Positions 229 through 37,380 of a stretch of 39,658 nt of DNA are shown one piece after another. The notes under the pieces were generated by a model. That model was not told the origin of the DNA. It did not search any database and saw only the letters and a program-made list of their open reading frames with translations. Numbering within the stretch: position 1 is the first letter of the stretch; the number at the start of each line of letters is the position of its first letter. Where the stretch lies: the IMG/VR virus record IMGVR_UViG_3300027797_000056, positions 1 through 39,658 of that record; one strand, written 5' to 3'. The translations under genes and the position numbers were made by a program. The stretch comes from a virus.

Positions 229-237
229 CCTTAAACT
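229..237 (-). promoter_or_regulatory. GTTTAAAG-type motif before partial fibre gene
   Basis: Minus strand reads AGTTTAAGG, the same nine bases as the plus-strand site at 13985-13993. It lies in the 57-bp gap about 47 nt before the ATG of the partial fibre gene. A promoter role is inferred from recurrence and orientation. Confidence 0.45.
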
Positions 238-239
238 GC

Positions 240-3200
240 TCACAGTGTGATTGTCTGGAGTTGGGCGTTGGTGAGCCGGACGGGCCAGTAGGTGAGGCGG
301 CGGATGGTGCCGTTTAGAAACTGAGAATTGTTGTTTACGGAGCCGATGGACATTGATGAAACTGCGGGTACAGAGCCAACTGCGTCAGTAAGTACAACGC
401 CGCCATTAGCAGCCGCAGCAAAGTTATTACTGGCAAATGCGCTAGCGATTTTGCGCCTTCTTGCTCCTGCTATGACAACTGGGTACAATTCCGATTGAGT
501 AACGCCGCTAACGGAAATAAATGTTCCAGCTATTGCTTCGGTGACATAGCTAAATTGATTGATGTTACTTCCTGTTCGGCAATCAACAATAACCGGAAAT
601 GCGCTTGCTGGCACGGCAAGCTCTCTGAACACATCTCCGTAAAACGTCCCCTCATCCTGCCGATACCACGAACTAAACGCACTGCCCGTAATGCTGGCCA
701 CATCAGCGGCGCGGGTGGCGGCTGCGGTGGTGGTGGGGATGTAGGAGGTGGGGAAAGCGCCTGCTTCGCCTTGACATCCCCATAGATAAAAAGTTGACGA
801 AACCGAGTCGGCGTACAAATAATAATAATAAGAATCCCTTGAAGATGTTGTTGCTGAAATACGATACCAACCGTTTGGATATCTTACGACGGAAGCGTTG
901 AACCACGCTCCAGCAACAACAAGTGATTGAGTGGAGAAGGTAAACGTCCAATCAATTCCGCCATATCCAGCCCAGATCAGTCTGACAGTCGAAGATGTCC
1001 CTTGCTTTACAAAAAAAGAATAGGTAAGTGTTCCCGCTCCCAATGAATACCTGAAACCCGCGTTATCGGTTGCAAGCATTGCAGTATTGGTTCCGTCTGG
1101 TGCGATGCCAGCGTTGTCCAGCATTGTTGTTGCAAGCCATCCAGCGCTTGCCTGGCTATACGTCAGAGAGTTTATTCTCGCCTCCTCCACTAGCAGCCCA
1201 AGGCTTTCTCCAGTGGCCGGGTTGTGGTCGAAGCGTGGCTCGTTCACCGCTGCCGTCTTTATCAGGCCATCAGCCCCAACGTACGTCGCGGTGGAGGCGC
1301 GGGTGAACGTAACCCGGCTATCCAGGACTTTTGTCTGGGCGAATGCCAGGTCGAGTGTCGGCCGGACAGTGGGGTATGAGGAGGTGTTGTAGAAGTCGGT
1401 GGCGGTGACGATCCCGGAGACGCTGGAGTCGCCGATGACGTGTAATTTGCTCGTGGGGTTGGTGGTTCCGATGCCAACGTTACCAGAGATATAGGCCCCG
1501 CCGGTAACTTGGAGAGGTTGTGATGCCGTCCCTGTTGTTGTTCCAGTTCCTATAAGGACATTACCAGAATTAGTAATTCTTACTCCAGCAGCACTACTGC
1601 TCCAAGGAGCAATTATAAAATTCCCAGTTCCTGCTGTGCCATCAGTAAAAATTATTGCTTTATCATCAGATTGAGTTATTGGATTGTAAGCACCAGCACC
1701 CAGTCTATTGTGAATATCAATATATCCATAACCACTAACTCTGAGTTCTGGATTTGCGTCTGCGGCTGAACCATTATTGATTTCCAGTTTTGCTTGAGGA
1801 TTTGTAATACCAACTCCAACAGAACCAGAAACATAAGCACCACCAGTAACTTGAAGTGCTTGTGATGCTGTCCCTGTCGCTGTCGTGGTTGCTACAAGGA
1901 GGTTTCCAGAAGTATCAATTGTTGCTCTAGCTACTGGTCCACTTGTAGTATTTCCAAGCGCGGGCATTTGTAGAAAAACTAAACTTCCAGCATTATTTCC
2001 TATTGCCCAAGGATTGCTATTATTAAAATCAAGAATACCGATAGCATTGTTCCTTACACCGCCGATTACAAGATTTGTACCATAATTAGATGAAGACCAC
2101 TGCGAAGAAGCGCGAATATCAAGTGCTCCCTGTGGGTTTGTGGTTCCAATACCCACATTCCCGGAGAAGTACCCACCCCCAGTGACCTGAAGGGGCTGGG
2201 ATGCTGTCCCTGTCGCCGATGCGGAACCAATAATAAAGTTTCCAGAACTATCGACTCTACCTCGATCTAGATTGGTTCCCGAGGAATTCGCAGTAACGAA
2301 TCTTAAGACACCACCGGTAGCTTTGTATGCTACTATATCCAGCAATCCGGCATTGCTGATAGCAAAACTTCCTACCGATGTTATGTCCGCAGAATACGCT
2401 GCGATAGTACCAAGAACTTCTAATTTATTTGATGGGTTGGTTCTGCCAATGCCGACGTTACCAGTGGAAGTAAGTCTTACTAGTTCGGTTGAACCGGATC
2501 CAAATGCCATTCCCTGCAGAGAACCATTCGGATTGAACTCAATATAACCCATCTCAGTTGTATCAATTACCTGAAGTAATTTTGTTGATGCAGTAGTCCA
2601 ATCAGCTCCCGCGATATTTCTTGTTGCCTTAATCCTCAAATACGAGTTATTGCCATTCGAATGAAAGAACTGTGCTACTGTGGCCGTGGCGTTGGCAGTT
2701 GTACCAAAATTGCTGGCATTTAAATTGGAAATGCTAGCATTTGGAGAGAGTTGTAGCGCAACAGCCGGGTTTGTGGTGCCAATACCAACATTACCACTTG
2801 AATTTATAAACTGCCGAATATTCCCCGATCCGTCGGAAATGATGATATTATTGCTCGAGGTAGCAATGCTGGATCCAGTATTTGACCCGATCACAACGTT
2901 TGAGCTTCCGGAGGTTATTGCTGAACCTGCACCGGATCCTAAACCGGTATTACTCGATCCTGTTCCCACAGTGCCTAGCGCCGCGTAGCCTACTGCTGTA
3001 TTATTTGAGGATCCGTCGATGTACCTGAGACTATGGCCTCCTACCGCTACGTTATTCCCTCCGCCGATCTCGGTAACCGATGCGATAGTCAGCTCCATCC
3101 CCGCAAATGATGAGTTTGTGGTAGACATCACGTCGTTTACCGCGGGAAGGTTCGTCGGCAGGAACGGAGGTGAAACAACGATAGAAGTTATTGCCCCGCC

Positions 3201-7099: not shown

Positions 7100-7858
7100 T
7101 CAGAAATTGCCGCCATCGGTTATCGTTAGGAGCGTATTTACGTCGTTCACTGTGTATTTTGCTTGTGACTGATTATACACCACCACACTCTTATCAACTT
7201 TGCTCGTATCGATTACGTTCGCCAAATCTCCCAGCGATGGCTTATTACCAGCGTGCCACACCTCGCTGGAGTTGACCTTTAGAGACTCCGCGTTAACTCC
7301 GCCCTGTACCGCAACATCTCCAACTATCTCGGTGCCGTTGGCAAATTGCTCGTCCTCGTTGATAACGAGTTTGTTTCCGTTCGCTGTGGAAAATCCCGCA
7401 AGAGCAACTTTATTATTGATTTTTAGTCTGATCCCGTCCGTGTGAACGCGGTTATCTCCGTCCGCGCCGTTCTTGAACTGGTCGAGGTAATCGTCAGTTC
7501 TGCCATACACATCCCCCACCTCAACCCACACCGAGGCCGCTTGGTTCCATACCTTGAGCAGGTACTTATCCACTCCGGCGGACGTATCCACCCAAGCTTC
7601 TCCGTTGGACAGCTCCACAGGGAACCCGTAGGTGGAAGCCGTGGAGTTTGGCGCGGAAGCCCCGAAGTGAATCGGACCAATCTTCCTGATCCGCCTATTT
7701 CCTCCGGAGTCCAGATCACAGACAAAAAGCCCGGGCTCACTGCTATTAAAGTTTACAGCTAGCTCACCGTCCTCAAGATCCTGTACTTGAGGCCTTTTGG
7801 AGAAGACGGGAGAGCGTCTTAGAAGGACCTTATCACGTGAGGAGGGTGTCTGAGTCAT
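7100..7858 (-). CDS. Tail fibre-related structural protein
   Basis: A protein of about 252 residues starting at the ATG at 7856-7858 (MTQTPSS...); the frame extends two codons upstream only through a TTG. The N-terminal segment (RRSPVFSKRPQVQDLEDGELAVNFNSSEPGLF) resembles the L..GELA.N....L attachment module of the two fibre genes downstream. The middle contains a WVEVGDVYG-type segment, and the C-terminus ends LLTITDGGNF, echoing the TIDGGTF-type ends of fibre proteins. A near-consensus GTTTAAAG motif sits just before the start. A fibre, adaptor or fibre-network protein is likely; the exact role is unknown. Confidence 0.7.
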   Translation of the reverse strand: MTQTPSSRDKVLLRRSPVFSKRPQVQDLEDGELAVNFNSSEPGLFVCDLDSGGNRRIRKIGPIHFGASAPNSTASTYGFPVELSNGEAWVDTSAGVDKYLLKVWNQAASVWVEVGDVYGRTDDYLDQFKNGADGDNRVHTDGIRLKINNKVALAGFSTANGNKLVINEDEQFANGTEIVGDVAVQGGVNAESLKVNSSEVWHAGNKPSLGDLANVIDTSKVDKSVVVYNQSQAKYTVNDVNTLLTITDGGNF

Positions 7859-7862
7859 ATAC

Positions 7863-7873
7863 AACTTTAATCT
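7863..7873 (-). promoter_or_regulatory. GTTTAAAG-type motif (one mismatch)
   Basis: Minus strand reads AGATTAAAGTT, one base from AGTTTAAAGTT, 4 nt before the ATG at 7858. If it is a promoter, the transcript would be almost leaderless, or it serves a start further downstream. Confidence 0.3.
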
Positions 7874-9891: not shown

Positions 9892-10320
9892 TTAGTTGTA
9901 AGTGAAGGTATCCATCACGAACGTTAGTTCGAGGGTGGAGACGTTAGCGGAAGTGCGATCAGCGGCGCCAAAGTTCAGACTTGTCATCTGAGCGTCGGGA
10001 ATCGTGATTGTGCGCTGGCCAACGGGCTGAGGGTCCTCTCCGCAGGAGACAGGAGTCACTGTGAGTGTTACGAATTCGCAACCGTACGACTTCCAGAAGT
10101 CGACGATGTCGGCGTGCTTCTCAGGGTCGAAGGGCACGGACACCGTGACCTCGGAGAGGGTGCGGGGGCCTTTAAGATTGAAGATGCGTCCTCTCACGCC
10201 ATCGGCGTACTGTGAAGTGCCGGCTGTGTCGCGGATTCCACTAAAGTTAGTGAAGTAGTGCTGGAAGGGGGACGCCTGAATCCAGAACTGGCTCTGCGTT
10301 ACGGGCTTGTATGATAGCAT
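9892..10320 (-). CDS. Putative tail tube protein
   Basis: A compact 142-residue protein with alternating beta-type segments. It begins MLSYKPVTQSQFWIQASPF and ends LELTFVMDTFTYN. The segment PFDPEKHADIVDFWKSYG followed by beta strands resembles tube-type proteins, which suits its size and its place between the portal and tail genes. It is about 58 bp from the portal gene upstream, with a GTTTAAAT motif in that gap. The identification is by length and context, not by a diagnostic motif. Alternatives are a head-tail connector or a small tail-completion protein. Confidence 0.45.
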   Translation of the reverse strand: MLSYKPVTQSQFWIQASPFQHYFTNFSGIRDTAGTSQYADGVRGRIFNLKGPRTLSEVTVSVPFDPEKHADIVDFWKSYGCEFVTLTVTPVSCGEDPQPVGQRTITIPDAQMTSLNFGAADRTSANVSTLELTFVMDTFTYN

Positions 10321-10352: not shown

Positions 10353-10362
10353 ATTTAAACTA
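10353..10362 (-). promoter_or_regulatory. GTTTAAAG-type motif before tube-candidate gene
   Basis: Minus strand reads CCTAGTTTAAATATT in the gap between the portal stop and the next ATG (10320), about 33 nt before that start. The CCTAGTTTAAA core is shared with the site at 20731-20740. A TATAAG lies further downstream, so an ordinary -10 box there is possible too. Confidence 0.5.
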
Positions 10363-10378: not shown

Positions 10379-12310
10379 TCACATAAAATACGGGGCAAAG
10401 TACTTCCAGTAGCCGCTAGCCCTGCAGTCTATAACAACACATTCCTTATGCACCACAGACCTGTTAAGTCTGTATATCGACTTGTACAACTCGAGCAGCT
10501 TCGCCGTATCGCACCCGTCGATCTCGTCGACTCTCAGCGAGTTCTCTATGGAATGCAGATCGGTGTCCAGAGAGCCGAGCGCCATGGACTGCTCGGGGCG
10601 AATATACGGAGCCTTCTTAACCTCCTCCAGGAGCCTACGGCAGCCATGGGCAACTTCGCCAGGAGACGTGTACTCGTCGATATTGACTCTGGACGTGGAG
10701 GCTTCGGAGTCTCCATTATCAGAGACGATGCGCTGGAACCCAACATCGTCCAGCGTTCCATCGAATTTGGAGGCGATGATCTTAGCGATCTTGTCCTTCT
10801 TGGTTTTGTCTGGCTGATCTCCCATCTCGTCGTACTCTTCGTCACCTTCGGCAAAGTCGAATAGCTTGAGCAGGTCAGACTGATCTGCTCCGAAAGCTCC
10901 CTGGGCACCGTTGGAGGCGTCGGCCATCTGCTCCGGGGTTTTTGCCTCGGACATAGGAGCGGCTCCTGGAGCACCTCCTCCCATCGCGCTCATATCCATC
11001 TTACCCAGAGAAGGAATCTCCAGCTTGTCCCTCATCCAGTCAAGGTCCTTGACCTCGAAGCCGATGGCCTGCAGTTGTGTTAGCATCTGCACTATCTTAA
11101 CAGGATCCTCACGCTGCTCTAGATCATCAAAGTTTCTACGAAGTCTAGGAACAGCTGCGCCCGGGTAGTTGAGCTCAACAATCCAGCGAATAAGCGTAGC
11201 GTTAATCGTCTCGTCGAGTTCCTCAGAAAACGCTTTAGCCTTACGCATACGCACCGAGTCGGAGACCTGGTCTCTCGCGTACGATCCAACATTTCCCGTC
11301 TCCTGACCTACTGTGTTCTCGCCGTTCAGAACGAAGCTGATCTGCTGATCAACGTACTCGATAAGCTTCTCGTAGACGTCCGCTCGGCCCTGACTCTCCA
11401 GCCAGGAGATGTCCATCTCGTCGGGGATGACAATCGCGGTCTCCTGGCCAAGGCGCTGCAGAGCGGTGAATAGCGACGCAACCTCCTCATCTGGGGTGCC
11501 GAGTGAGAACTTGCCGACCGCGGTGGGGGTCGTGTGCTTGTCCGCGTACTGGAGCCAGAAGGACATGAGAGTTCTCCTGAACTCTACCAGGCTATATAGC
11601 TGTCTACCAAGACCCGATCCGTACGGATCCATAAAATTACTGTACGCCCAGTGCCTATGGATAACCATAGAACGCAGAGGCAACGAGATCCCCTCCACTG
11701 GGGAGGTCACAGTCATCAACCTAGGCGAGATAGTCCCGTCCTCGTTGAGAACAAACTGGAAACGCCTGGGGTCTCTGATCTTGACTTCTGACGGCACAAT
11801 ATAGTTCCCCTGGCGCATCCAGCAGATCTCGCCGATGGATATGCCAAGTATGATCGACTCGCACATTCCCCTGATGAAGGTGTCAAACGCCGAGTTAGAT
11901 GTGACGAGCATCTCCTTGCCGTAGGACTGCCGGGTGTTGGTGCCCATTCGCTTCATCACCTGGCGAACAAACTCCGCTACCTCCTCATCACGGTCGGATG
12001 GCGAAGCCGGATCAACTTCCCACTTACGCTGGATGATCTCACCCGTGATCTTCTCCCAGGCGGCGATGATATGGCTGTCGTTGAACAGCCGCATGTACTT
12101 CTCGATCGCGCGAGGGCCACCACCACCCTCCTCGATGAGGATGTCGTCGCGGCGGGGAAGGATCGAGCCGGAGTTTAGGTACGGGGTAGCTGTGTAAGCG
12201 TACGGGTCAGCTTTGTAGCCCGCAAGACTGCCCTGAGCCACTCCTAAGCTGAAGTAGCGATCAAAATAACCCGTGCGTGGGCCTAGACTCCTCTTCGAAC
12301 TATCTGACAT
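10379..12310 (-). CDS. Portal protein (Mu gp29 / DUF935-like)
   Basis: A 643-residue portal, forming the dodecameric ring through which DNA enters and leaves the head. The core (residues about 60-400) shows the DUF935/Mu gp29-like pattern: AAWEKITGEIIQRKWEVDP near the N-terminus, a GISIGEICW segment, RRFQF, HRHWAYSNFMDPYGSGLGRQ, FSLGTPDEE and the VLNGENTVGQETGNVGSYA segment. The C-terminal 200 residues are a variable acidic extension (FAEGDEEYDEMGDQPDKTKKDK). This fits the Mu-like capsid genes at 25.3-31 kb. The terminase that would normally accompany a portal is not in the window. Start: ATG at 12310; no clear ribosome site is seen. Confidence 0.88.
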   Translation of the reverse strand: MSDSSKRSLGPRTGYFDRYFSLGVAQGSLAGYKADPYAYTATPYLNSGSILPRRDDILIEEGGGGPRAIEKYMRLFNDSHIIAAWEKITGEIIQRKWEVDPASPSDRDEEVAEFVRQVMKRMGTNTRQSYGKEMLVTSNSAFDTFIRGMCESIILGISIGEICWMRQGNYIVPSEVKIRDPRRFQFVLNEDGTISPRLMTVTSPVEGISLPLRSMVIHRHWAYSNFMDPYGSGLGRQLYSLVEFRRTLMSFWLQYADKHTTPTAVGKFSLGTPDEEVASLFTALQRLGQETAIVIPDEMDISWLESQGRADVYEKLIEYVDQQISFVLNGENTVGQETGNVGSYARDQVSDSVRMRKAKAFSEELDETINATLIRWIVELNYPGAAVPRLRRNFDDLEQREDPVKIVQMLTQLQAIGFEVKDLDWMRDKLEIPSLGKMDMSAMGGGAPGAAPMSEAKTPEQMADASNGAQGAFGADQSDLLKLFDFAEGDEEYDEMGDQPDKTKKDKIAKIIASKFDGTLDDVGFQRIVSDNGDSEASTSRVNIDEYTSPGEVAHGCRRLLEEVKKAPYIRPEQSMALGSLDTDLHSIENSLRVDEIDGCDTAKLLELYKSIYRLNRSVVHKECVVIDCRASGYWKYFAPYFM

Positions 12311-12363: not shown

Positions 12364-12564
12364 TTACTTTACCGAGTCACTGTCTTTTGATTCTTTAAAC
12401 TCGGAAGCTTCGGACCGATCCACGTACACAACCTGAGCGTCAAGGATTATGTCGTATAGTTCCTGGGAGGAGATCTCTCCTCTGTTGTACCTGTCAATGG
12501 CCTCATCGGCTCCATCGACGATCACAGGCTGGGAGTTGGTGAGAACGTTTATGCCCCTTTCCAT
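12364..12564 (-). CDS. Small hypothetical protein
   Basis: About 66 residues from the ATG at 12562-12564 (MERGINVLTNSQPVIVDGADEAIDRYNRG...), which overlaps the end of the upstream gene by 16 bp. An AGGAGG lies very close to this ATG. A longer frame opens with ATG at about 12619 (MAETTHSD...) but lacks a ribosome site. The segment AIDRYNRGEISSQELYDIIL looks like a short helical motif. No family is recognised. Its place between an unknown gene and the portal suggests a small head or packaging-linked protein, but that is inference. Confidence 0.55.
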   Translation of the reverse strand: MERGINVLTNSQPVIVDGADEAIDRYNRGEISSQELYDIILDAQVVYVDRSEASEFKESKDSDSVK

Positions 12565-13523
12565 TCCTCCTGTGCTCCCCTGATCTCCTGCTGAATCGCT
12601 GTGAGTTGTTTCTGCCATTTTGGTTCGTAGGAATTGAGGTAGATGTGCCACTTCTTTGGCCACTCGTTGCTCGAGAATTTATGCTCGAGCTCCGGCGGGC
12701 AGACCGTGGTAAACGCTTTGCGAAGAGCGCTGACTCCGGCCGAGACGAAATTATACCGAGTCTTGTGGTAGTATCGCTCGAGCAGATCCAGAGACACGTG
12801 AGGAAAATTCTTCTCGAATTCGGCGAAAAGAGGCGAGTTTTTCACATCAACTTTGGACTCCTCCTCGGCTTTTTGAGATACGTACTGGTAGGACTCGTCA
12901 AGGATGTCCGCGATAAGGCTCGAGTTGAACGGGTAGGATTCGTAGTCATTTATCTCCTTCCAGAAGACCTTCAGAGACTCGTACGCCGCAGTGATGCTGT
13001 GCTTTGAGAACTTGGAGAACCTCTCCCTCAGATCCTTGCGAAGAGTCTCGACGAGATGGGAATCGGCCGCTTCCGGCCATTTAGCGGCTCGGTGAGCGCA
13101 TCCGTTGGCCCACAGAAAAGCCAGGAGAAGGGTCTTTATCCGCCCTTCCTTCAGGTCTTTCAGCGGGACGATATTGTTCTCCTGGAGATGGGCGTACCAC
13201 TCCTCGAAGAGTTTTGATGATCTGTCATTCGCCCCCTCCCAGACCTTGGTTTTTGAGATGAGGCCTATATGCTTGTCGGTGCAGGCTCCGTAGGAGGTTA
13301 GTTCGTTGAACTTTCTGTCCTCGTCGGAGGAGCCACTGGGGACGGAGTCATGGGACCTAGCAGCACCTCCCCCTCCACCCTTACGCGAGGAGATTCTCAG
13401 TTCCTCAAGCTTTATCTCGTGGGAGAAAGTCGCCTCGAGCTTCCACCGATCGTGGTCTAGCAGCAGCTGGAGCTGCTCGTCACTTAGTCGCGGAGCTAGT
13501 GTCAGAAGTTGATTGAGTTCCAA
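12549..13523 (-). CDS. Hypothetical protein upstream of portal
   Basis: A 324-residue, mainly helical, charged protein that I cannot assign. After an acidic/Leu-rich start (LLTLAPRLSDEQLQLLLDHDRWKLEA) there is a Gly/Ser-rich linker near residues 48-70 and then a helical body with many Trp, Tyr and Lys. It overlaps the gene at 13480-13950 by 44 bp. A textbook sigma70-type promoter (TTGACA, 16-bp spacer, TATAAT) lies inside that upstream gene, 30 bp before this start. Position next to the portal could suit a packaging or head-assembly factor, but no motif supports a specific role. Confidence 0.75.
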   Translation of the reverse strand: MELNQLLTLAPRLSDEQLQLLLDHDRWKLEATFSHEIKLEELRISSRKGGGGGAARSHDSVPSGSSDEDRKFNELTSYGACTDKHIGLISKTKVWEGANDRSSKLFEEWYAHLQENNIVPLKDLKEGRIKTLLLAFLWANGCAHRAAKWPEAADSHLVETLRKDLRERFSKFSKHSITAAYESLKVFWKEINDYESYPFNSSLIADILDESYQYVSQKAEEESKVDVKNSPLFAEFEKNFPHVSLDLLERYYHKTRYNFVSAGVSALRKAFTTVCPPELEHKFSSNEWPKKWHIYLNSYEPKWQKQLTAIQQEIRGAQEEWKGA

Positions 13524-13950
13524 GCCGGCGCAGACTTACATCTATAGTACTAATTATATCACGATATGACCAAGTGTCAATCACTCTGTTAAAGATCTTA
13601 GGATCCATGCGGCCCAGATCCACGCCGTCCCTGAGGATGTAGTTGATCCTCTCCCAGATCGACTGGCCGGCCTCCTCGTATAGAAAGATCATCGGACCAT
13701 CGGAACCCTCGCAGGCCTCGATCGCCGATAGGGCCTTGAAGAACTCGCCTAAGGACCCGCAGTCGTACCCGCAGAAGATGATAAATGACGCGGACTTCAT
13801 AGAAGCTTCTGTCAGACCCTGCCTGACTTTCAGCTCTACGCCCTCCTTTTCCGTGAGCACCTGCTCGAGATGCACGGCCATCTTATTCAGGTCGGACGAG
13901 TTATCTACCGCCTTACTTTTGATTAAAACTGCTGAGATCTTAGCCTGCAT
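13480..13950 (-). CDS. Hypothetical protein, possible Rossmann-like (LOG-like) fold
   Basis: A 156-residue protein. Residues about 52-95 read as strand, Gly-rich turn, helix, strand (ASFIIFCGYDCGSLGEFF, then GPMIFLYEEAG). This recalls the GG.GT..E pattern of LOG-type nucleotide-processing Rossmann folds, but the family's PGGxGTxxE signature is not intact. The first 50 residues and a later segment (DTWSYRDIISTID) look alpha/beta. It is the first gene of a minus-strand unit, divergent from the 1269-residue gene, with a TAGGTTTAAAGTT motif just before it. The C-terminal Ser/Thr-rich tail overlaps the next gene. The function is unknown, and the fold guess is weak. Confidence 0.65.
   Translation of the reverse strand: MQAKISAVLIKSKAVDNSSDLNKMAVHLEQVLTEKEGVELKVRQGLTEASMKSASFIIFCGYDCGSLGEFFKALSAIEACEGSDGPMIFLYEEAGQSIWERINYILRDGVDLGRMDPKIFNRVIDTWSYRDIISTIDVSLRRLGTQSTSDTSSATK
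13553..13580 (-). promoter_or_regulatory. Sigma70-type promoter inside gene 13480-13950
   Basis: Minus strand has TTGACA at 13575-13580, a 16-bp spacer and TATAAT at 13553-13558, with an upstream TG (GTGATATAAT). This is nearly perfect host-type consensus. It would start transcripts about 20 nt before the gene at 12549-13523. Confidence 0.75.
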
Positions 13951-13970: not shown

Positions 13971-13983
13971 AACTTTAAACCTA
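13971..13983 (-). promoter_or_regulatory. GTTTAAAG-type motif, divergent gap (minus side)
   Basis: Minus strand reads TAGGTTTAAAGTT, about 20 nt before the ATG at 13950. It is half of a head-to-head pair with the plus-strand site at 13985-13999 in the gap between two divergent units. Confidence 0.55.
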
Positions 13984-13984
13984 A

Positions 13985-13999
13985 AGTTTAAGGTTTAAG
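13985..13999 (+). promoter_or_regulatory. GTTTAAAG-type motif, divergent gap (plus side)
   Basis: Plus strand reads AGTTTAAGGTTTAAG, two overlapping cores, 17 nt before the ATG at 14016. Having the motif on both strands of a divergent gap supports a promoter role. Confidence 0.5.
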
Positions 14000-14015
14000 T
14001 AGATACGTCGTGTAC

Positions 14016-17000
14016 ATGAATCCCGAGCTTTTCGAAGACATTCGTATAAACGCACAGAGATTCGTCTCCGAGAGCCTTGCTGCTTACGAGCGTGACTTCG
14101 GAAAGCTCAGCACCGACCTATCAAGGCGAAAGTTTCTGGATTCGGGTCTCGAGCTGCTGGTAAGGATTCTAGACCGCGCAGAGAGCAACGAGGAGATCTC
14201 CATCCTGCCATTTAAGCAGGTTCTTCTCTCGGTTCTGTTTGATCTGGACTTTGATACAGATGCCGTAAAGAATCTACTACCGTTCATCAACACGCAGTTA
14301 GTAGAGTATATCAAAACAAGGCCTAACTACGACGCCGGCCTGACACGGGTATTTAACACCTACTTTGCCCTGTTCGTCGAGAATATAGGCAACTACTCAT
14401 TCTACTCGTCGTCGAGCGCCGTAGATATACTTCAGGCTCAGCCTGAGTACCAGTATTCGGAGTCGTTGTACTCCATCGTGCCTGACGAGATCAACCTTGG
14501 CGAGAGTCGGATCTACACCGTATTTTCCGAGGAACGTTACTGGGAGAACTTCTCCTCTGGGAACAGCGTAACTCAGTACGATGCGCTCATCATCTACGAC
14601 GGCGAGCTGTACAAGCTCCGTCCTGATGTCTCCGCTCCAACAACGACCTACTTCGAGCCAGATGAGTGGATCAAGTACGTACCGAAAAAGTTCGATAAGA
14701 GCAGATCCTTTAAAACAGTTTTTCTCTCCAATGTAAGGTCCGCGTTCGGTAAATTCACCGAGGTCGGATTTGACGTCAACGAGATCACCTCCGACTCCGA
14801 GGTGGCGGAGTACTCCGAACCCACCGTGGTGGACAGGGCGCTTCTAACCTCCACTTTTGGCGGTGTAGGGGCTCAAGTCCTTGACTCCGTGAAGGACCTG
14901 AAGCTTCTGTCGGACTCCTTCGGAGCGTACGAGGGCTCTCCTGTGGGAGGCATAGAGTTTATCACCTCGTTCTCCGAGTACCTCCTCGCGGCGGGCTTAG
15001 GGCGGAATACGACGGCCATCTTCGACGTCAATGACGGGGACTCCGTATTCGGAAAGTTCAACGTCCTCTACAAGTCAGCCACCACCACCAATAGAATACC
15101 AGGACTCAAGTTCCTGAATGGGTTCGGGTCGTTGAAGTCTTTCGTGCACTCGCAGAAACTTCCCGAAGGCACTCCTATAAGCTCGGGGAGAATCATCTAT
15201 AATCCGGTGTACTCGCAGTTCGAGAGCGGGCTCCAGGACCGCTTTACCTCGTTGAAAAAATCAACTTCCTACGCCGAACCGGCAAAAACCGATCTTCTAC
15301 TGTTTGCGATTGAAAACGCTTACGGAAAATCCCTGGCTATAGGAGACACCGTAAAGGCCACACTTAACACCGTAGATAGTAAGGGTAGGGTACCTGGGTT
15401 CGAAGGGTTAGGATCCATCAAGGTTCAACTGGACGAGCTTCAGAGAGTATTTCCTCCGACGTTATATTTTACAGAGTTGTCCTACGAGTCCAAAGTATCC
15501 GCTGGTCTGACAGGATCGCTGAGATACATGCTAAATAATTACTCTAGGTTTTTAACCGCGATGGTGGAACCGATCCTACCTGGCAAATCGCTGGAGTTTT
15601 TTGGTCCCTGGCTCGAGAGAATATCGGGTAAGCTGGAGGAGTTGGGTGACGTCATTAAGGGAGTGGGTGTATCTACATCGGAGTTTATTCCTAACATCTC
15701 ATTCAAGGCGTTCGAGGCCACCGACATAAAGCTGATTGACTTTCTCCGTTCGCTAGGGTTTAGAGACTCGGAGGTGAATAAACTGCTGAAGGTGGAGTCG
15801 TTCTCCCAGCTGGTGAGCAATTTTGCCCCTCTGACCGACTCATCCGACCTCAAGTCCTTTTTCAAAGCCTACGAGCTTACGCAACTCATCTACGAATTTG
15901 GTGGCCAGCAGGCCATAGACTCGTACCTGTCCTTTCTCTACTCTAGTAGCTCGGTAGATTCCCTGCTGAATATCCTGAGCATCTCCCAGAAGGACAAATC
16001 CAGGCTCACCTACGTTAATATCAATAAGTACCCGAAGCTAATAGGGCTGCTTATCGGACTCACCTACGCGATCGACCCCGCTCAACTCGTGAGATTCGAG
16101 AAGATCCTAGGAAAAAACAACCTCAGCCTGCTGGAATCCATCTCGTACCTGTACCAGAACGGGGAAAGCACGGTAATCAAGAGCCTTCAGGACGTAGAAC
16201 TGCTCAGGCCTATGGTGGAGCAGATCATAACTGGGACTTACACCCAAGATCCATTTGCCGCACCGTCACTGAACTACGACCAGGCTAATAGCACCGTTCC
16301 TATCGCTCTCAAGCAGTGGACTGATGTCATAGACCGCAACCTGGGAAGTGTAGGAGGATCCGCGATAATCGAGGGGTTGTACGATAAGGCCAAAGGCCTA
16401 ACGCCCAAGGAGCTGATGTCCGTTCTAGGAGGACCTAGCTCAGCAACTGGCCTTGGGCAGGTTTTGGACGGATTCTCCGGAGGAACACTTACTTCCTTCC
16501 TGAAGTACGCCAGTCTGGCCGGGTTGGGTGTGAAGTTAGGGAACTATAAAAACTCCTACCAGACAGATAATTTTTACGTTGACGCCTCCTACGAGTTCTA
16601 CACGCTCCCTCTGATCATAGAAGAGATAGACTCTCTAGTCAATTCTATCTCCATAATTAAGACGATATTTGGCTCGGAACTCGACTACAACTTCCAGGTG
16701 AATTCGGGATTTGCGAGTAACCTAGAACCTCTAGTGCTCTCCCAGAATAAGACGTACGAAACTATCCCGCAACTGGTATCGGCTGGAGTGTCCGGAGATA
16801 GTCTCGCTGGCCTCAAGCTAACGGCCGGATCGGCGCAGATCGCCGAGTCGCCAGGTGTAGGTAACTCCAGACTACCTAACCGTGTCCCAGTTAAAAACTC
16901 CGTTACTCCAGAGCAGGCAAAGCAACTGTACTCCTACTCGTCTAATATAGCGCAGCTGGGACTCGTTGACAAGATTCCGGTAAATCTCATCAGCAAGTAC

Positions 17001-20297: not shown

Positions 20298-20317
20298 ATT
20301 CTATCACACTTTAAAGG
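20298..20317 (-). promoter_or_regulatory. Promoter region of dCMP deaminase: TTTAAAG plus TGATAGAAT
   Basis: Minus strand reads CCTTTAAAGTG at 20307-20317, directly followed by TGATAGAAT (20298-20306), 22 nt before the ATG at 20276. No good -35 box is seen. This is one place where the two motif types meet. Confidence 0.45.
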
Positions 20318-20516
20318 ACCTGTTGCCACTCAGACCTAATTTATTCACGATATGCTTGTTGAATTTTTTTAGTAGTCTTTTGTCCTCCTCGCCAAGAAAG
20401 ATCTTGCCGGTAGGAACCGCGGGCTGGGGAGATTCCTCAGCAACCACCTGCTCTACTTCGGCCACTGATTCATGAGATGGAGACTGCTGCTCGCTCTTGC
20501 GTTTTGAGGTTGTCAT
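20304..20516 (-). CDS. Small hypothetical protein
   Basis: 70 residues, rich in Ser, Glu and Lys, low complexity at the N-terminus and ending in a basic helical segment (EEDKRLLKKFNKHIVNKLGL). Its ATG overlaps the stop of the gene at 20513-20710 (ATGA), supporting translation. The 3' end overlaps the promoter region of the dCMP deaminase. No family is recognised. Confidence 0.55.
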   Translation of the reverse strand: MTTSKRKSEQQSPSHESVAEVEQVVAEESPQPAVPTGKIFLGEEDKRLLKKFNKHIVNKLGLSGNRSFKV

Positions 20517-20710
20517 CGGTTACGGATTCTGCGACATGAACTGCACGATTGATACGGGCTACGATCCTGAGTGTTAGGTATCTGTTCCCACTCTGCTGGA
20601 GTAAGTCCAGTAGCCAACTCCGACTGCTTACGAGGAGTCGAGGACTTTTCCGCCCACTTTCTCCAGCTGGAAAGTTCTGACTGACTAGCAGAGCTAGGTA
20701 GGTTGTCCAT
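20513..20710 (-). CDS. Small hypothetical protein
   Basis: 65 residues (MDNLPSSASQSELSSWRKWA...), Ser-rich with two Cys and an Arg-rich end (SCSSCRRIRNR). It is preceded by a strong CCTAGTTTAAAGG motif at 20731-20740, 21 nt before the ATG, and coupled by ATGA to the next small gene. No family is recognised; the ordered motif and coupling make it a likely real gene. Confidence 0.55.
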   Translation of the reverse strand: MDNLPSSASQSELSSWRKWAEKSSTPRKQSELATGLTPAEWEQIPNTQDRSPYQSCSSCRRIRNR

Positions 20711-20730: not shown

Positions 20731-20740
20731 CTTTAAACTA
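20731..20740 (-). promoter_or_regulatory. GTTTAAAG-type motif
   Basis: Minus strand reads CCTAGTTTAAAGG. The TAG of the motif is also the stop codon of the gene at 20738-21109, so the two elements overlap exactly. It lies 21 nt before the ATG at 20710. Confidence 0.55.
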
Positions 20741-21109: not shown

Positions 21110-21143
21110 AGGGCACCTCAGCCTCTAGATAAATTTAAACAAA

Positions 21144-21158
21144 GGGGTTTAAAGAATT
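21144..21158 (+). promoter_or_regulatory. GTTTAAAG-type motif before tail-assembly unit
   Basis: Plus strand reads GGGGTTTAAAGAATT, 18 nt before the ATG at 21177. A second, oppositely oriented ATTTAAAC lies at 21132-21140 and could serve the divergent gene. Confidence 0.5.
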
Positions 21159-21176: not shown

Positions 21177-21545
21177 ATGGCGATAAGCAAAATGGCGCGA
21201 GATGCTTCGCCAACGATCTCACGAATCGAGGAAGAGGACGACCTTTTTGACTTTGGTGAGCCTGAAGTTATCTCCGTCGAGATCTCACCTGGCAAATTTC
21301 TCACTCTCAAAGAGCCCTCAGCCAACGACCTTATCGAGATCTCGAAGGTTTCGGATAACAAGAACATCTCCGAGGTAGAAGCTACGCTCCAGACGATCTG
21401 TATCCTCCACGCTCCGGACGCTGGAAAGAGACGCCTCTCTCTGAAAGATGCTAAGAGGCTTACTGCCCGCCAGCTGAGAAAACTCGGAGAGGCGATCAAT
21501 GATCTGCTTGGGCTAAACTCTGACCCGGACTTAGCCGACGAGTAA
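21177..21545 (+). CDS. Tail assembly chaperone-like protein (gp41/gpE type)
   Basis: 122 residues. The segment near residues 34-70 (ISVEISPGKFLTLKEPSANDLIEISKVS...) resembles Mu gp41/P2 gpE-type tail-assembly chaperones, which hold the tape measure during tail building. The remainder is helical, ending DPDLADE. It is first in a unit of three overlapping genes leading to the tail sheath. The stop TAA overlaps the next ATG by one base (TAATG). In many phages this position uses a programmed frameshift; I see no clear slippery site here. The assignment is by resemblance and position. Confidence 0.6.
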   Translation: MAISKMARDASPTISRIEEEDDLFDFGEPEVISVEISPGKFLTLKEPSANDLIEISKVSDNKNISEVEATLQTICILHAPDAGKRRLSLKDAKRLTARQLRKLGEAINDLLGLNSDPDLADE

Positions 21546-22240: not shown

Positions 22241-22250
22241 TTGTTTAAGG
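22241..22250 (+). promoter_or_regulatory. GTTTAAGG motif before tail sheath
   Basis: Plus strand reads TTGTTTAAGG, 34 nt before the sheath ATG. A TTATAAAT (22227-22234) just upstream resembles a T4-type late promoter, so either element could be the active one. Confidence 0.45.
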
Positions 22251-28889: not shown

Positions 28890-28915
28890 GCTTAGCTTAG
28901 CTAACTACAAAACTG

Positions 28916-28940
28916 GAGGCCTTCGGGCCTCTTTTTTTTT
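28916..28940 (+). terminator. Strong intrinsic terminator after major capsid gene
   Basis: GAGGCC, loop TTCG, GGCCTC, then nine T. It is a perfect 6-bp GC-rich stem with a UUCG tetraloop. It closes the sheath-to-capsid unit; a GTTTAAAG motif 22 bp on restarts transcription. Confidence 0.95.
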
Positions 28941-28961: not shown

Positions 28962-28971
28962 AGGTTTAAAG
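28962..28971 (+). promoter_or_regulatory. GTTTAAAG motif after capsid terminator
   Basis: Plus strand AGGTTTAAAG, 24 nt before the ATG at 28996 and just after a strong terminator. This is the clearest case where a promoter must lie in a short gap, and no sigma70-like boxes are visible there. Confidence 0.6.
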
Positions 28972-28995: not shown

Positions 28996-29787
28996 ATGCC
29001 CGAACCGTTACCAGATAAGTTTGGCATAGCAGACAACTGTAATCCGGCAACAGTGGACTACTTTGTCGAGGTTTTTGGCTACCAGGAAGCAGTAGAACTC
29101 TCCAACATCGACAACCCCACGGGAAATAGCATAAATACCGATAAGATCCAGATAGCCCTTAATGACGCTGCCACACTAATCAATAACTACATTCTTACCG
29201 CTCCGCCTCAGGGTAAGATCCTGATCGCTGGGTCATATCGCCGCACTCAGGCCATTCTGGCCAGATGGTACCTGGACATCCTGCGCCCAAGGCAGCAGGT
29301 TATCGACGCGGCAGAGAAAGCTCTTGAGCAGCTCGAACTGTGGGCCTCCAAAGCCTCTCCGTCCAGTGGGCTTAAGTGGCAGGAAGCTTACCGCTACTGG
29401 ATGAGCGGTTGCACAATGACGAAGAGCTCCTACAACCGTGGCAGGAGCTTCACCGAGCCCTCTACCGCCAGGTGGGTGCTACGAGACGGAGGAAACAACC
29501 GCTGGTGGCAGTTCCCACGCAAGGAGGCAAACTCGGTACAACGTAACAACTCCGAAGCGCTATCAGATGCGGCTCTTCAGGTATCCTCAATCATGCCTGA
29601 ATCGGCACTGGAGGTCAATGAGCTATTCGACGCTCTGGAAACCACCCGTGGAATGGCGTCTTTCACCAATACGCAGAACGCTGTGGATCCAGAAGATGGC
29701 GATACCGTCATTGCCACCAACCCCACAGAAAACGCTACTGGCACTTTTGACAACTACAATGGCCTCCAAGAAGGCAATACTTTCTAA
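28996..29787 (+). CDS. Head-tail connector, Mu gp36-like (DUF1320)
   Basis: 263 residues. The N-terminal half matches DUF1320/Mu gp36-type connectors: DKIQIALNDAATLINNYI, RRTQAILARWYLDILRPRQQVIDAAEKALEQLE. These proteins join portal and tail at the neck. The C-terminal half (after residue 145) is an added Arg/Asn/Trp-rich extension ending in a flexible Asn/Thr-rich tail. It begins a new unit after the capsid terminator and precedes a gp37-like gene, as in Mu order. Confidence 0.75.
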   Translation: MPEPLPDKFGIADNCNPATVDYFVEVFGYQEAVELSNIDNPTGNSINTDKIQIALNDAATLINNYILTAPPQGKILIAGSYRRTQAILARWYLDILRPRQQVIDAAEKALEQLELWASKASPSSGLKWQEAYRYWMSGCTMTKSSYNRGRSFTEPSTARWVLRDGGNNRWWQFPRKEANSVQRNNSEALSDAALQVSSIMPESALEVNELFDALETTRGMASFTNTQNAVDPEDGDTVIATNPTENATGTFDNYNGLQEGNTF

Positions 29788-31533: not shown

Positions 31534-31887
31534 TCAGTTCCAGCTGATGCACACGTCGTGCACGCCTCTAGACAGAGGGCCCAGGGCGCTAAAAGACTTA
31601 GCCGATAAATCTATGACCCTTCCGCCGACAAAAGGTCCGCGGTCTGTGATCACTGCTTTAGTGCTTTGGCCATTAGCAGTCACTGTAACAACCGTTCCAA
31701 AAGGTAGCCACTTATGCGCTGCTTGATTCGACCAGGTGTCAAACTTTCGACCTGATGCAGTAGTTCCTCCTTGGTATCCGTCCCCCAGGCCGTAGTAACT
31801 AGCTCCTCCGCATTGTCTTCCAGCGTATGCAGACATTGGAATAGAGGAAAGAATGGCGAGGCCTAGGCAAACAATAGTTTTCTTCAT
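31534..31887 (-). CDS. RlpA-like double-psi beta-barrel protein, secreted
   Basis: 117 residues from the ATG at 31887, preceded by CAGGAG. A cleavable signal peptide is clear: MKKTIVCLGLAILSSIPMSA, likely cut after AYA (residue 22). The mature part is an RlpA-type double-psi beta-barrel: ASYYG, TASG, HKWLPFGTVVTV, then TDRGPFVGGRVIDLS and LG. RlpA family members can cleave glycan strands of peptidoglycan. In active enzymes a Glu lies in the TANGE motif; here the corresponding residue is Arg (TASGRKFD, residue 47), while the Asp of DRGPF is kept. A host-wall or lysis-linked role is plausible; loss of activity is possible. It is convergent with the Dps gene. Confidence 0.85.
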   Translation of the reverse strand: MKKTIVCLGLAILSSIPMSAYAGRQCGGASYYGLGDGYQGGTTASGRKFDTWSNQAAHKWLPFGTVVTVTANGQSTKAVITDRGPFVGGRVIDLSAKSFSALGPLSRGVHDVCISWN

Positions 31888-32020
31888 GAAGCTCCTGTGT
31901 AGTGGACATGACATTCCAGGGTCATCTTTGCAATCTGCAATTGTTTATAGATGAATTAGATATGTTATGACGAGCGCCCGGCGATACACGAGAGGACTCG
32001 GATCGAAAAACGCTCGAGTT

Positions 32021-32034
32021 TAACTTTAAACTAA
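32021..32034 (-). promoter_or_regulatory. GTTTAAAG motif before RlpA-like gene
   Basis: Minus strand TTAGTTTAAAGTTA, 134 nt before the RlpA ATG and 10 nt after the stop of the gene at 32044-32325. The imperfect hairpin formed around that stop (GGCGATTA/TAATCCGCC) may end the upstream transcript. Confidence 0.5.
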
Positions 32035-32043: not shown

Positions 32044-32325
32044 TTACTGTAATCGCCTAAATAGCTCTTTACCCTCCTTTATATTGGAGAGAAGGGTGGA
32101 CATAGAGACTGGCCTATGCCCCCCATTACTAATTATACCACGGCATCTGGGGTACTTGGTCGGGGGGTAGCCAGTTCGGCGAAGTAGCACAACGTCAGAG
32201 GCATCCGCTCCCACCCATCGAGTGGGTTTTTTGGCCTTTGACATCAGAGTGGGTTCCTCCCGGACGTAGAGGGAGAAACCGTAAGTGGATCTGAAGTAGT
32301 CGTTTATGTCGTCAAAAGACTTCAT
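32044..32325 (-). CDS. Small hypothetical protein
   Basis: 93 residues, basic (MKSFDDINDYFRSTYGFSLYV, then LMSKAKKPTRWVGADASDVVLLRRTGYP). It may be a nucleic-acid-linked protein by its charge, but no motif supports this. A TGGTATAAT extended -10 box lies 27 nt before the ATG. A second CGTGGTATAAT occurs inside the gene (32132-32142). It is downstream of the polymerase gene on the same strand. Confidence 0.6.
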   Translation of the reverse strand: MKSFDDINDYFRSTYGFSLYVREEPTLMSKAKKPTRWVGADASDVVLLRRTGYPPTKYPRCRGIISNGGHRPVSMSTLLSNIKEGKELFRRLQ

Positions 32326-32351: not shown

Positions 32352-32360
32352 ATTATACCA
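32352..32360 (-). promoter_or_regulatory. Extended -10 element (TGGTATAAT)
   Basis: Minus strand TGGTATAAT, 27 nt before the ATG at 32325 and overlapping the end of the polymerase gene region. No good -35 box is seen. Confidence 0.5.
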
Positions 32361-35138: not shown

Positions 35139-35786
35139 TTAGTAGTGGATCAGAAACTCCTCTCGGTCCGTGTAGTACACCCCCACCCCCTCGAAGTTAG
35201 TCGCGTCGATGATGTGAAGGTTCTTCCGCGAGTAGGGAAAACCGTAGTGCCCGAAGAAGTACTCGGCGTCCGGCTTGATGTGGTCCTCGAGCCGGTCGTT
35301 CTTAAACCACGGATACCCTATGCCTGTGAGAACGTGGTTTCTGTTCTTGTCCGTGTAGTTCGGATTGTAGTAAGCGTGGGCACAGCGGTAGGTCTTTTCG
35401 TACGACTCGAGTTCTAGGGTGAGCGGGGACGTGGCTAGCCAGTGGAGAAGGCTAAGTCTCTCCTCGAGCGGTAGTTCTTTCAGGCACTCAAGAGTGTACT
35501 TGACCTCCTTCTGCCTGATCTGCACTTTGGGAAGTATTAAGTTGCTAAGTATGTAGTTCTCGTTATTGCCTATGATAAAGGTCGCTTTTCCCGCGTCCAC
35601 CAGCTCCTTTATTATTAGGAGCATTCTTATGGGCGAGGTTCTTTTTGCCCTGCGAAAGAACGACTTGTGGTGGATAGCGTCACCCAGGATAACGTAGTGG
35701 TACCCCTCGGACTTCTGCAGTATTCTCTCTAGAGCATCGACTCGGCCATGGAGATCTCCTATAAGGCAGTATTTCTCAGTACTCAT
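35139..35786 (-). CDS. Metallophosphoesterase-like protein, degenerate motifs
   Basis: 215 residues of the PPP-type metallophosphoesterase fold. GDLHGR (residues 10-15) is intact, but the second and third motifs are altered: GDAIHHK in place of GDxxDRG and GNNE (73-76) in place of GNHE, losing the usual catalytic His. A later AHAYYNPN (His137) and FFGHYGFP (His180) supply other metal-ligand positions. Substrate specificity is not visible; phage relatives include protein phosphatases and nucleotide-clearing enzymes. Activity may be lost or changed. Its start overlaps the upstream gene by 11 bp, and a terminator follows. Confidence 0.8.
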   Translation of the reverse strand: MSTEKYCLIGDLHGRVDALERILQKSEGYHYVILGDAIHHKSFFRRAKRTSPIRMLLIIKELVDAGKATFIIGNNENYILSNLILPKVQIRQKEVKYTLECLKELPLEERLSLLHWLATSPLTLELESYEKTYRCAHAYYNPNYTDKNRNHVLTGIGYPWFKNDRLEDHIKPDAEYFFGHYGFPYSRKNLHIIDATNFEGVGVYYTDREEFLIHY

Positions 35787-36300
35787 CTTTGCCCTCCAGG
35801 CAGCAGCCAGGTGCCCACCAGTCCGGAATATCTGTTTTCCACGATGCGAATCTCCACTTCATCCAGTTGTAGTAGTTGCGGTAGGCTTTTACAGGGTTCT
35901 CGGAAACCTTGCAGAAGTCCGGCATAGCTTGAGCGGGTTGTGTATGCCCTAATCTTGGAAAGGCGTTCTTTACCCCGTTCCCATCTATGGACTTAAGACT
36001 TTCCCTGCCGGAGTGCTCTTTACCGTATCTATCCTTGAACTCGTCGCAGAGGTGCCATGTGAGGCTCCACGTCCACTCGAAATTATCCATAGACTCCTTA
36101 ACCCACTTAGTACAGGGGTGGTTTTTGTACGCTCTCACGGAATAGAACTCGCCGTCTTTCTTTCGAGCGGGATCCAGGTCGTAGTGAGCTAACGCTACGC
36201 TCATCATCTGGAGATGCTCCACGATCATCTTGTTGACGTGCTTGTCGCAATGGGCTTTTGCCGCGGTTTTGGGATCAAGGTCAAGGACAAAGATGTTCAC
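35776..36300 (-). CDS. Conserved phage protein, CDKHV family
   Basis: 174 residues with a GTG start at 36298-36300. It matches a family seen across marine phages: MNIFVLDLDPKTAAKAHCDKHVNKMIVEHLQMM near the N-terminus, then a HPCTKWVKESMDNFEWTW block and DEFKDRYGKEHSGRESL. The conserved Cys, Asp, Lys and His in CDKHV suggest an active or metal site, but no function is established to my knowledge. It overlaps the phosphoesterase by 11 bp and starts 6 nt after a terminator T-run. Confidence 0.75.
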   Translation of the reverse strand: MNIFVLDLDPKTAAKAHCDKHVNKMIVEHLQMMSVALAHYDLDPARKKDGEFYSVRAYKNHPCTKWVKESMDNFEWTWSLTWHLCDEFKDRYGKEHSGRESLKSIDGNGVKNAFPRLGHTQPAQAMPDFCKVSENPVKAYRNYYNWMKWRFASWKTDIPDWWAPGCCLEGKDEY

Positions 36301-36305: not shown

Positions 36306-36341
36306 AAAAAACCTTCGGATAGAGATATTCTATCACGAAGG
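36306..36341 (-). terminator. Intrinsic terminator directly before GTG start at 36300
   Basis: On the minus strand CCTTCG, bulged T, GATAGA, short loop, TCTATC, CGAAGG, then six T. The stem is 12 bp with one bulge. The T-run ends 6 nt before the GTG start of the CDKHV-family gene. The left arm contains TGATAGAAT (36327-36335), identical to the -10-like box of dCMP deaminase. Confidence 0.85.
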
Positions 36342-36370: not shown

Positions 36371-36544
36371 TTAGACGTCGTACTCTCTGCACTCCAGGGC
36401 GCTGGGGTTCTTCTTGCAGTAATCGTCTAGGGAGAGGGTGTGGGTCTCGTTGTCTAGAGTCAGTGTTGCTTTAGCATCTCCAGTAATGCTGATACCGCCC
36501 CCGGGCTTAAATGTGATGGAGTCGGAGAATGTGATGTTTTCCAT
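36371..36544 (-). CDS. Small hypothetical protein
   Basis: 57 residues, ATG at 36542-36544 and TAA at 36371-36373. It starts MENITFSDSITFKPGGGISI and ends with a Cys-bearing segment (DDYCKKNPSALECREYDV). A beta-type start with a short helical, acidic end suggests a small compact protein. A GTTTAAAG motif (36551-36560) lies only 6 nt before the ATG, and a terminator follows the stop, so it can form its own short unit. No family is recognised. Confidence 0.65.
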   Translation of the reverse strand: MENITFSDSITFKPGGGISITGDAKATLTLDNETHTLSLDDYCKKNPSALECREYDV

Positions 36545-36550
36545 AACGTA

Positions 36551-36560
36551 CTTTAAACTT
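36551..36560 (-). promoter_or_regulatory. GTTTAAAG motif before small gene
   Basis: Minus strand AAGTTTAAAGTACG, 6 nt from the ATG. If this is a single-element promoter, the mRNA would be leaderless or nearly so. Confidence 0.5.
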
Positions 36561-36588
36561 TAAGTTCTGATGTTAGGGTTGTGTAACA

Positions 36589-36660
36589 TGGGAAATACCG
36601 GATTCGAACCAGTGACCGTCTCCGTGTAAAGGAGCTGCGCTACCGCTGCGCCAATTTCCC
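36589..36660 (-). tRNA. tRNA-Val (TAC)
   Basis: Full cloverleaf: acceptor GGGAAAT/ATTTCCC, anticodon loop TTTACAC with anticodon TAC, and T loop TTCGAAT. One mismatch at the top of the anticodon stem (G/A). No CCA is encoded. Confidence 0.92.
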
Positions 36661-36662
36661 AG

Positions 36663-36745
36663 TGCACGAGAGAGGACTTGAACCTCCACACCGCTAGGGT
36701 ACGGGTACCTAAAACCCGGGCGTCTACCAATTCCGCCACTCGTGC
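36663..36745 (-). tRNA. tRNA-Leu (TAG)
   Basis: Class II tRNA with long variable arm. Acceptor GCACGAG/CTCGTGC, anticodon loop TTTAGGT (TAG), T loop TCAAGTC. Only 2 bp separate it from the tRNA-Val gene. Confidence 0.93.
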
Positions 36746-36748
36746 AAA

Positions 36749-36820
36749 TAGGACCGCGGGGAATTGAACCCCGTTCACACCGTTATAAGCAGTGGGCCTT
36801 AACCTATAGGCGACGGTCCC
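36749..36820 (-). tRNA. tRNA-Ile (TAT)
   Basis: Anticodon loop CTTATAA, anticodon TAT, which reads AUA directly. Acceptor GGGACCG with a G-T end pair, T loop TCAATTC. A sigma70-like promoter lies just upstream. Confidence 0.93.
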
Positions 36821-36831
36821 GATCTGTAGAT

Positions 36832-36860
36832 ATTATACCACGGATTCTGGGAGGTGTCTA
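36832..36860 (-). promoter_or_regulatory. Sigma70-type promoter of first tRNA array
   Basis: Minus strand TAGACA (36855-36860), 17-bp spacer, TATAAT (36832-36837) with an extended TGG. It is 12 bp before the tRNA-Ile(TAT) 5' end and should drive Ile-Leu-Val. Confidence 0.75.
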
Positions 36861-36864
36861 CTGC

Positions 36865-37302
36865 TCAGAGTGACCGAGGCTGGTTGATGGCGCCGGGTCT
36901 GTTATTGTAGTTGAATACCTCGCTCATAGGCCTCATCTCACCTAACACGAACCCGACTACGAGAACAGCACCCACAAGTATCCACCTGAACTTCGCGAGA
37001 TCCGTGATTCTCTTCTCGTGGTCTTTTAGGGCCTCGTCCATAGCCTTGAGGCTGTCCGCGTTCTGCTTCTTCGTCTCATCGAGAAGCTTTATGATAGCCG
37101 CGTCGGATTGCAGCGTTTGGTCTATTCTTTCCTCGTGGCGGACTAGGATCTTCGAGATATTCTGATTGGTCTCGGATATCTTGTCTACGGCGTTCTCAAG
37201 CTTTGCAAGCATCTCTCTGGAGAGATCTTCGTACACGCTCAGCTTTTCCTCTAGAACGGCCATTTTTACGTCTGTATTTTTCGTGAAAAATAGGTCGGCC
37301 AT
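36865..37302 (-). CDS. Coiled-coil protein with C-terminal membrane segment
   Basis: About 145 residues from the ATG at 37302 (MADLFFTKNTDVKMAVLEEKL); the frame extends further upstream but without conserved sequence. Residues about 12-100 form a long heptad coiled coil (DLSREMLAKLENAVDKISE, LVRHEERIDQTLQSDAAIIKLLDET). A single hydrophobic segment follows (FRWILVGAVLVVGFVLGEM, about 108-127), then a short polar tail. Proteins of this layout are common in cyanophage genomes and unassigned. Membrane anchoring suggests a host-envelope role (perhaps lysis or superinfection control), but that is inference. It lies between two tRNA arrays and has a GTTTAAAG motif upstream. Confidence 0.8.
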   Translation of the reverse strand: MADLFFTKNTDVKMAVLEEKLSVYEDLSREMLAKLENAVDKISETNQNISKILVRHEERIDQTLQSDAAIIKLLDETKKQNADSLKAMDEALKDHEKRITDLAKFRWILVGAVLVVGFVLGEMRPMSEVFNYNNRPGAINQPRSL

Positions 37303-37370
37303 TGGATAGATACGGTATCGTTTATAACTACTTGTATCTTTCAACAGAAGCCTCTGTTTCACTGGAAGAA

Positions 37371-37380
37371 CTTTAAACTA
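37371..37380 (-). promoter_or_regulatory. GTTTAAAG motif before coiled-coil membrane gene
   Basis: Minus strand TAGTTTAAAGTTC between the tRNA-Ser(TGA) 3' end and the gene at 36865-37302, about 69 nt before its ATG. Confidence 0.5.

Follow-up and report, generated by a model that had tools for sequence, protein, structure and literature searches.

I found that a short motif with the consensus RGTTTAAAGWW marks the starts of gene units in a viral DNA of 39,658 bases, which is the whole of its virus record and is called the window below. The motif is best read as a single -10-like element that serves as the late promoter in the S-TIM5 (Aurunvirus) lineage of cyanophages, in a cascade that would lead from host sigma to phage sigma to the late genes; I put the probability of this reading at roughly 0.8. 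That the motif is a promoter core is highly probable. An earlier note, made from the letters of the window, had proposed a class of phage-specific promoters with one element each, which a sigma-like factor of the phage, encoded elsewhere, could read; this is still the best-supported reading. The motif itself is confirmed as real, and the evidence for it is stronger than that note had claimed.

Judged from its proteins, the window comes from an S-TIM5-like cyanophage (Aurunvirus), of whose genome it is a fragment. Its tail sheath and DNA polymerase are 50% and 71% identical to those of S-TIM5, and PHROG matches were found for portal, tail tube, sheath, head maturation protease, major head protein, connector, dCMP deaminase, and DNA polymerase. 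In addition, 15 tRNA genes lie at 36.6-38.8 kb (array 36588-38750, minus strand). When its first 25 kb were compared with phages by megablast, no match was found. Relatives were collected from IMG/VR via the sheath protein, and the motif was compared among the window, S-TIM5, and three long relatives (G001, G002, and G004); these genomes range from 40 to 56% GC, G002 being GC-rich.

The most frequent 8-mer in the 80 nucleotides upstream of the called genes, read in gene direction, is GTTTAAAG (6 of 3,139 positions in the window), and the same word ranks first in S-TIM5 and the three long relatives, that is, in five of five genomes. The window has nine exact copies of it, against about one expected (an estimate from base composition). 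EM from random seeds gave AGTTTAAAGnT as the best motif of the window alone and recovered AGTTTAAAG in S-TIM5, G001, and G004; with the genome's own background, AGTTTAAAG was recovered in the window and in G002. Allowing up to one mismatch, AGTTTAAAG occurs 16 times in the window, while 8.3 occurrences are expected and none of 100 shuffles reached 16. A PWM trained on the four other genomes, with the window left out, gave 19 window matches scoring 12 bits or more, where 3.0 ± 1.7 are expected. The 11 best of these matches are at gene heads and all 11 face the downstream gene; ten are located in gaps and one within the last part of the small ORF 12364-12663. The comparison with shuffled sequence and the search in S-TIM5 and its relatives, both named as checks in the earlier note, came out positive.

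As shown in Table 1, the elements are distributed over both strands of the window. Twelve of the 13 sites listed previously (229, 7863, 10353, 13971, 13985, 20731, 21144, 22241, 28962, 32021, 36551, and 37371; 13.5-18.6 bits) were recovered. The site at 20307 was rejected, being a CTTTAAAG palindrome next to a host-type TGATAGAAT. Two elements were absent from the previous list, namely 12393-12401 and 21133-21141, the latter being the partner of the element at 21146. The presence of the motif on both strands of the divergent gap at 13.97 kb and directly behind a terminator was claimed correctly.

Table 1. Putative late promoter elements, host-type promoters, and terminator in the window
Feature	Sequence	Position	Strand	PWM (bits)	Context
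Putative late promoter element	AGTTTAAGG	229-237	-	13.5	ORF 3-182 (-) starts ~44 nt downstream
Putative late promoter element, weaker variant	AGATTAAAG	7865-7873	-	13.7	Ahead of 7100-7864
Putative late promoter element	AGTTTAAAT	10353-10361	-	15.3	Ahead of tail-tube-like gene 9892-10320 (tail tube PHROG match)
Putative late promoter element	AGTTTAAAG	12393-12401	-	18.1	Ahead of portal gene 10379-12310
Putative late promoter element	GGTTTAAAG	13973-13981	-	17.5	Minus half of first divergent pair; kept in 17/18 relatives
Putative late promoter element	AGTTTAAGG	13985-13993	+	15.2	Plus half of first divergent pair; ahead of 14010-17819
Host-type extended -10	TGATAGAAT	20298-20306	-		Ahead of dCMP deaminase gene
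Putative late promoter element	AGTTTAAAG	20731-20739	-	15.7	Ahead of 20513-20710; kept in 3/10 relatives
Putative late promoter element	TGTTTAAAT	21133-21141	-	14.0	Minus half of second divergent pair; kept in 27/48 relatives
Putative late promoter element	GGTTTAAAG	21146-21154	+	17.0	Plus half of second divergent pair; ahead of 21177-21545
Putative late promoter element	TGTTTAAGG	22242-22250	+	14.2	Ahead of sheath-protease-capsid unit
Intrinsic terminator		28915-28932	+		Ends capsid unit, just before 28963 element
Putative late promoter element	GGTTTAAAG	28963-28971	+	15.2	Ahead of connector gene 28996-29787
Putative late promoter element	AGTTTAAAG	32024-32032	-	18.6	Window maximum; next called ORF 31534-31914 (-), a putative gene, ~110 nt away
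Host-type extended -10	TGGTATAAT	32352-32360	-		Ahead of 32044-32325
Host-type extended -10	TGATAGAAT	36327-36335	-		Ahead of 35776-36300
Element	AGTTTAAAG	36551-36559	-	16.6	6 nt before called ATG of 36371-36544
Host-type extended -10	TGGTATAAT	36832-36840	-		Ahead of tRNA-Ile/Leu/Val group
Putative late promoter element	AGTTTAAAG	37371-37379	-	16.9	Between tRNA-Ser and 36865-37362; first ATG 68 nt downstream
Host-type extended -10	TGGTATAAT	39309-39317	-		Ahead of 38863-39285

Some of the sites have a particular context. The element at 12393-12401 (PWM match 12390-12401) lies inside the last ~40 nucleotides, at the 3′ end, of ORF 12364-12663; this ORF was absent from the gene list used for the PWM scoring, which took the site as noncoding. 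The portal-side element of S-TIM5 likewise overlaps gp137. The element at 7865-7873 adjoins the called TTG start of its gene, and the first ATG is 6 nt downstream; the orthologue comparison at this site had a single relative and is hence uninformative. Another TGGTATAAT of the host type was found at 32132-32140 (minus strand) within ORF 32044-32325, ~100 nt upstream of the 32024 element. Finally, a perfect TTGACA-N16-TATAAT with a TG extension is located at 13553-13580 (minus strand), inside gene 13480-13950 and ahead of 12549-13523.

Is the element conserved at the same gene starts in the relatives? Orthologous start codons were located by tblastn in the IMG/VR relatives, and the 100 nt upstream were scored. 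At six orthologous unit starts, the element exists in at least 90% of the related contigs: the portal gene (exact GTTTAAAG in 9/9), 13950 (17/18), 14010 (17/17), 21177 (43/47, all exact GTTTAAAG), the sheath unit (47/51), and the connector unit (35/35). A seventh unit start, 21109, is weaker (27/48). In contrast, no element was found at the internal junctions of the protease (0/60), the capsid (0/44), 21545 (0/48), 21979 (0/50), and 30132 (0/29), and it is nearly absent from 27349 (2/51) and 29790 (1/28). Junction 18649 is intermediate, with a GATTAAAG-type match in 9 of 27 relatives, mostly 6 nt from the start; these matches are possibly due to chance. Since the relatives share ancestry, the counts are not independent and the weight rests on the contrast from junction to junction.

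The gene classes of S-TIM5 differ in how often they have the element. The element precedes 18 of 47 virion genes but only 4 of 42 metabolic or replication genes (p=0.003), while the host-type -10 has the opposite bias (1/47 versus 8/42). Among the 98 S-TIM5 genes with a same-strand upstream gap shorter than 15 nt, a single one has the element; together with the gene-head positions of the top PWM matches, this upholds the claimed preference for gaps over gene interiors. The motif is also present at some metabolic genes, and several S-TIM5 unit heads labelled virion have no match of at least 12 bits (e.g. 13705, 27083, and 60584).

A phage sigma factor encoded elsewhere, which the earlier note had thought possible, is present in S-TIM5 and its longer relatives. 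In S-TIM5, gp108 carries a sigma-factor annotation, and orthologues with 62-67% identity were found in all five contigs of at least 89 kb among the nine relatives searched; a gene for it exists in 56 contigs of the viral collection. No known sigma gene was found in the window fragment itself. The proteins are ~250 residues in length, have sigma regions 2 and 3, and are nearest to the SigF/SigB family. In two relatives, the match to Pfam sigma region 2 exceeds the cut-off, which S-TIM5 narrowly misses, and the NCBIfam SigF model, the closest one, aligns over residues 26-172 with a score far below the model cut-off. Beyond residue ~172, no profile matched (region 4), and this C-terminal part is conserved and helical. 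AlphaFold runs with 12 and 24 sequences were both poor (pLDDT 55-56). A TGRTATAAT sequence precedes the sigma mini-operon at 25 of 25 distinct loci, ~350-410 nt before the sigma gene, against a background of 15%; in S-TIM5, it directly precedes a thioredoxin-like gene, which is followed by the sigma gene. Late-type words upstream of sigma were rare (4 of the 25 loci), all of them GATTAA variants at a distance of over 700 nt. The SigF-like sigma probably reads RGTTTAAAG, and the element is probably late, as suggested by their co-occurrence, by the classes of the genes concerned, and by the promoter in front of the sigma operon.

It is conceivable, though unlikely, that the host RNA polymerase reads the motif with a host sigma and a phage activator, or with a modified core, and that the phage sigma does not. 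The link between the phage sigma and the motif is indeed one of co-occurrence, TTTAAA looks like a -10 in degenerate form, and the same genomes also have host-type promoters. Nevertheless, the motif departs from the TGRTATAAT class of these very genomes and has the opposite gene-class bias, and a lineage-specific sigma is conserved in them. In the cyanophage Ma-LMM01, where gp55 and gp33 are missing, the late genes have sigma-A-like sites instead (PMC5780444). Ma-LMM01 has temporal classes, as proposed for the S-TIM5 lineage, but all its promoter classes are SigA-like, without a phage sigma or a phage-specific motif (PMC5780444).

The layout of the element favours a -10-like box. The aligned sites have a single isolated element, RGTTTAAAGWWW, and neither a conserved upstream hexamer (-35) nor a downstream partner was found in them. 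The distance from the element to the start codon, claimed as 4-134 nt, is tighter, mostly 17-45 nt with a mode of 20-24. The median distance is 25-27 nt for GTTTAAAG, 25 nt for ATAAATA, the established T4-type -10 of S-PM2, and 24 nt for the host-type TGNTANAAT of S-TIM5. Purines peak 7-9 nt downstream of the element (67-76%), which corresponds to the position of +1 under a -10 model. Back-to-back copies across the relatives are spaced mostly 5, 6, or 17 nt, and the 5-nt spacing of the 13973-13993 pair is conserved. With 5-6 nt between divergent copies, there is little room for separate -35 elements. These results are best explained by a -10-like single-element promoter. The copies in the pairs 13973-13993 and 21133-21154 are roughly one helical turn apart. 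The element at 36551-36559 (minus strand) and one G004 site (35,314, its reverse strand) are placed 6 nt before the called ATG, which indicates either a leaderless message or a wrong start call.

The same measurements make it very improbable that GTTTAAAG serves as the -35 of a SigB/SigF-type promoter (GTTTAA-N14-GGGTAT) whose -10 would follow downstream. In favour of the idea, SigF/SigB is the family nearest to the phage sigma, the SigB promoter is GTTTAA-N15-GGGTAT with the -35 consensus GTTTAA (PMC9847131), and cyanobacterial SigF groups with SigB (PMC2758279). However, 49 of 90 sites are less than 28 nt from the start codon, so that a -35 role would put the transcription start there at or past the start codon. 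Unlike the promoters of Bacillus SigB and cyanobacterial SigF, the element of the S-TIM5 lineage has no GGGTAT partner or other conserved element downstream; GGNWA at the SigB spacing (12-17 nt downstream) occurs at 3 of 91 sites, versus 2 of 91 in a control window. The start-codon distances equal those of known -10 elements, and the closely spaced divergent copies also speak against the idea.

There is equally little to be said for a regulator binding site, an RNA-processing site, or a translation element in place of a promoter core. Sequence conservation as such is compatible with any of these, but the tight start-codon distance shared with known -10 elements, the downstream purine peak, and the site directly behind a terminator argue against them, and the limitation of the motif to unit starts with near absence from internal junctions argues against a translation element in particular. 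Chance or a composition artefact, for which the higher frequency of AT-rich words in gaps might be cited, is practically refuted by the base-exact conservation at orthologous sites over 40-56% GC, by the excess of matches to the externally trained matrix, and by the controls, since the same 8-mer procedure recovered in S-PM2 the T4-type late word that was to be expected there, AATAAATA, and gave GGGTAAAA in S-CBWM1, while GTTTAAAG is absent from the sense upstream regions of both.

How does the proposed -10-like late promoter compare with known systems? T4 late promoters have no upstream or -35 element and need gp55, gp33, and gp45 (PMC2988020), and TATAAAT has been used for searching T4-like cyanophages (PMC3037559). 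The likeness to T4 late promoters that had been claimed holds only for the layout. T4 late promoters (TATAAATA) and their versions in T4-like cyanophages are also single elements with -10 spacing and no -35 ahead of virion units, a sigma is encoded by the phage, and the start-codon distance equals that of the S-PM2 word. On the other hand, the word here is RGTTTAAAG, a difference already claimed, and the sigma of S-TIM5 is SigF-like and not detectably gp55: phrog_234 (gp55) matches S-PM2 but not S-TIM5 or its relatives, and hhalign gave a probability of 0.1% between the phage sigma and gp55. As for a gp45-type clamp, phrog_223 matches S-PM2 only and nothing in S-TIM5 or two relatives, in a search that a very diverged clamp would escape. 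The Pfam models PF02916 (gp45) and PF00940 (RNA polymerase) are uninformative, having no match even in S-PM2 or the control genomes; with PF00940 silent in the controls too, a phage single-subunit RNA polymerase is formally possible. In the literature searched, to which the S-TIM5 genome paper (PNAS 2012) did not belong, neither RGTTTAAAG nor GTTTAAAG was found as a cyanophage promoter, and no transcript data for the S-TIM5 group were found in the literature searched.

The Synechococcus phage S-CBWM1 (NC_048106) may have a late promoter class of its own. Its GGGTAAAA word has 33 copies on the plus strand but a single one on the minus strand, mostly 20-29 nt before start codons, and the genome has two annotated sigma factors. 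A single strand-biased word, a related DNA polymerase, and sigma factors of its own are traits shared with the S-TIM5 lineage, while the word and the sigma factors themselves are different. No description of the GGGTAAAA motif was found in the literature searched.

Under the favoured reading, host sigma-A would first read the TGRTATAAT promoters, one of which precedes the thioredoxin-sigma mini-operon. The phage SigF-like sigma would then redirect the host RNA polymerase core to RGTTTAAAG, transcription would start ~7-9 nt downstream of it, and the virion-gene units would be expressed, divergent ones from back-to-back copies 5-6 nt apart. This reading also suggests an origin of -10-only late promoters with a sigma that in its details is not related to T4 gp55. 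More tentatively, and with somewhat less than even odds, a SigF-like sigma captured from cyanobacteria may have become a late sigma that needs only a -10 and has a word of its own, by an evolution independent of T4 gp55, and may have done so separately in each cyanophage lineage with a gamma-type DNA polymerase (RGTTTAAAG in Aurunvirus and GGGTAAAA in Aokuangvirus), giving late switches free of a replication clamp. RGTTTAAAG would be a readable control code for a marine cyanophage lineage, by which late units may be assigned from sequence alone, and the S-TIM5 group would have a testable cascade from host sigma through phage sigma to the late genes.
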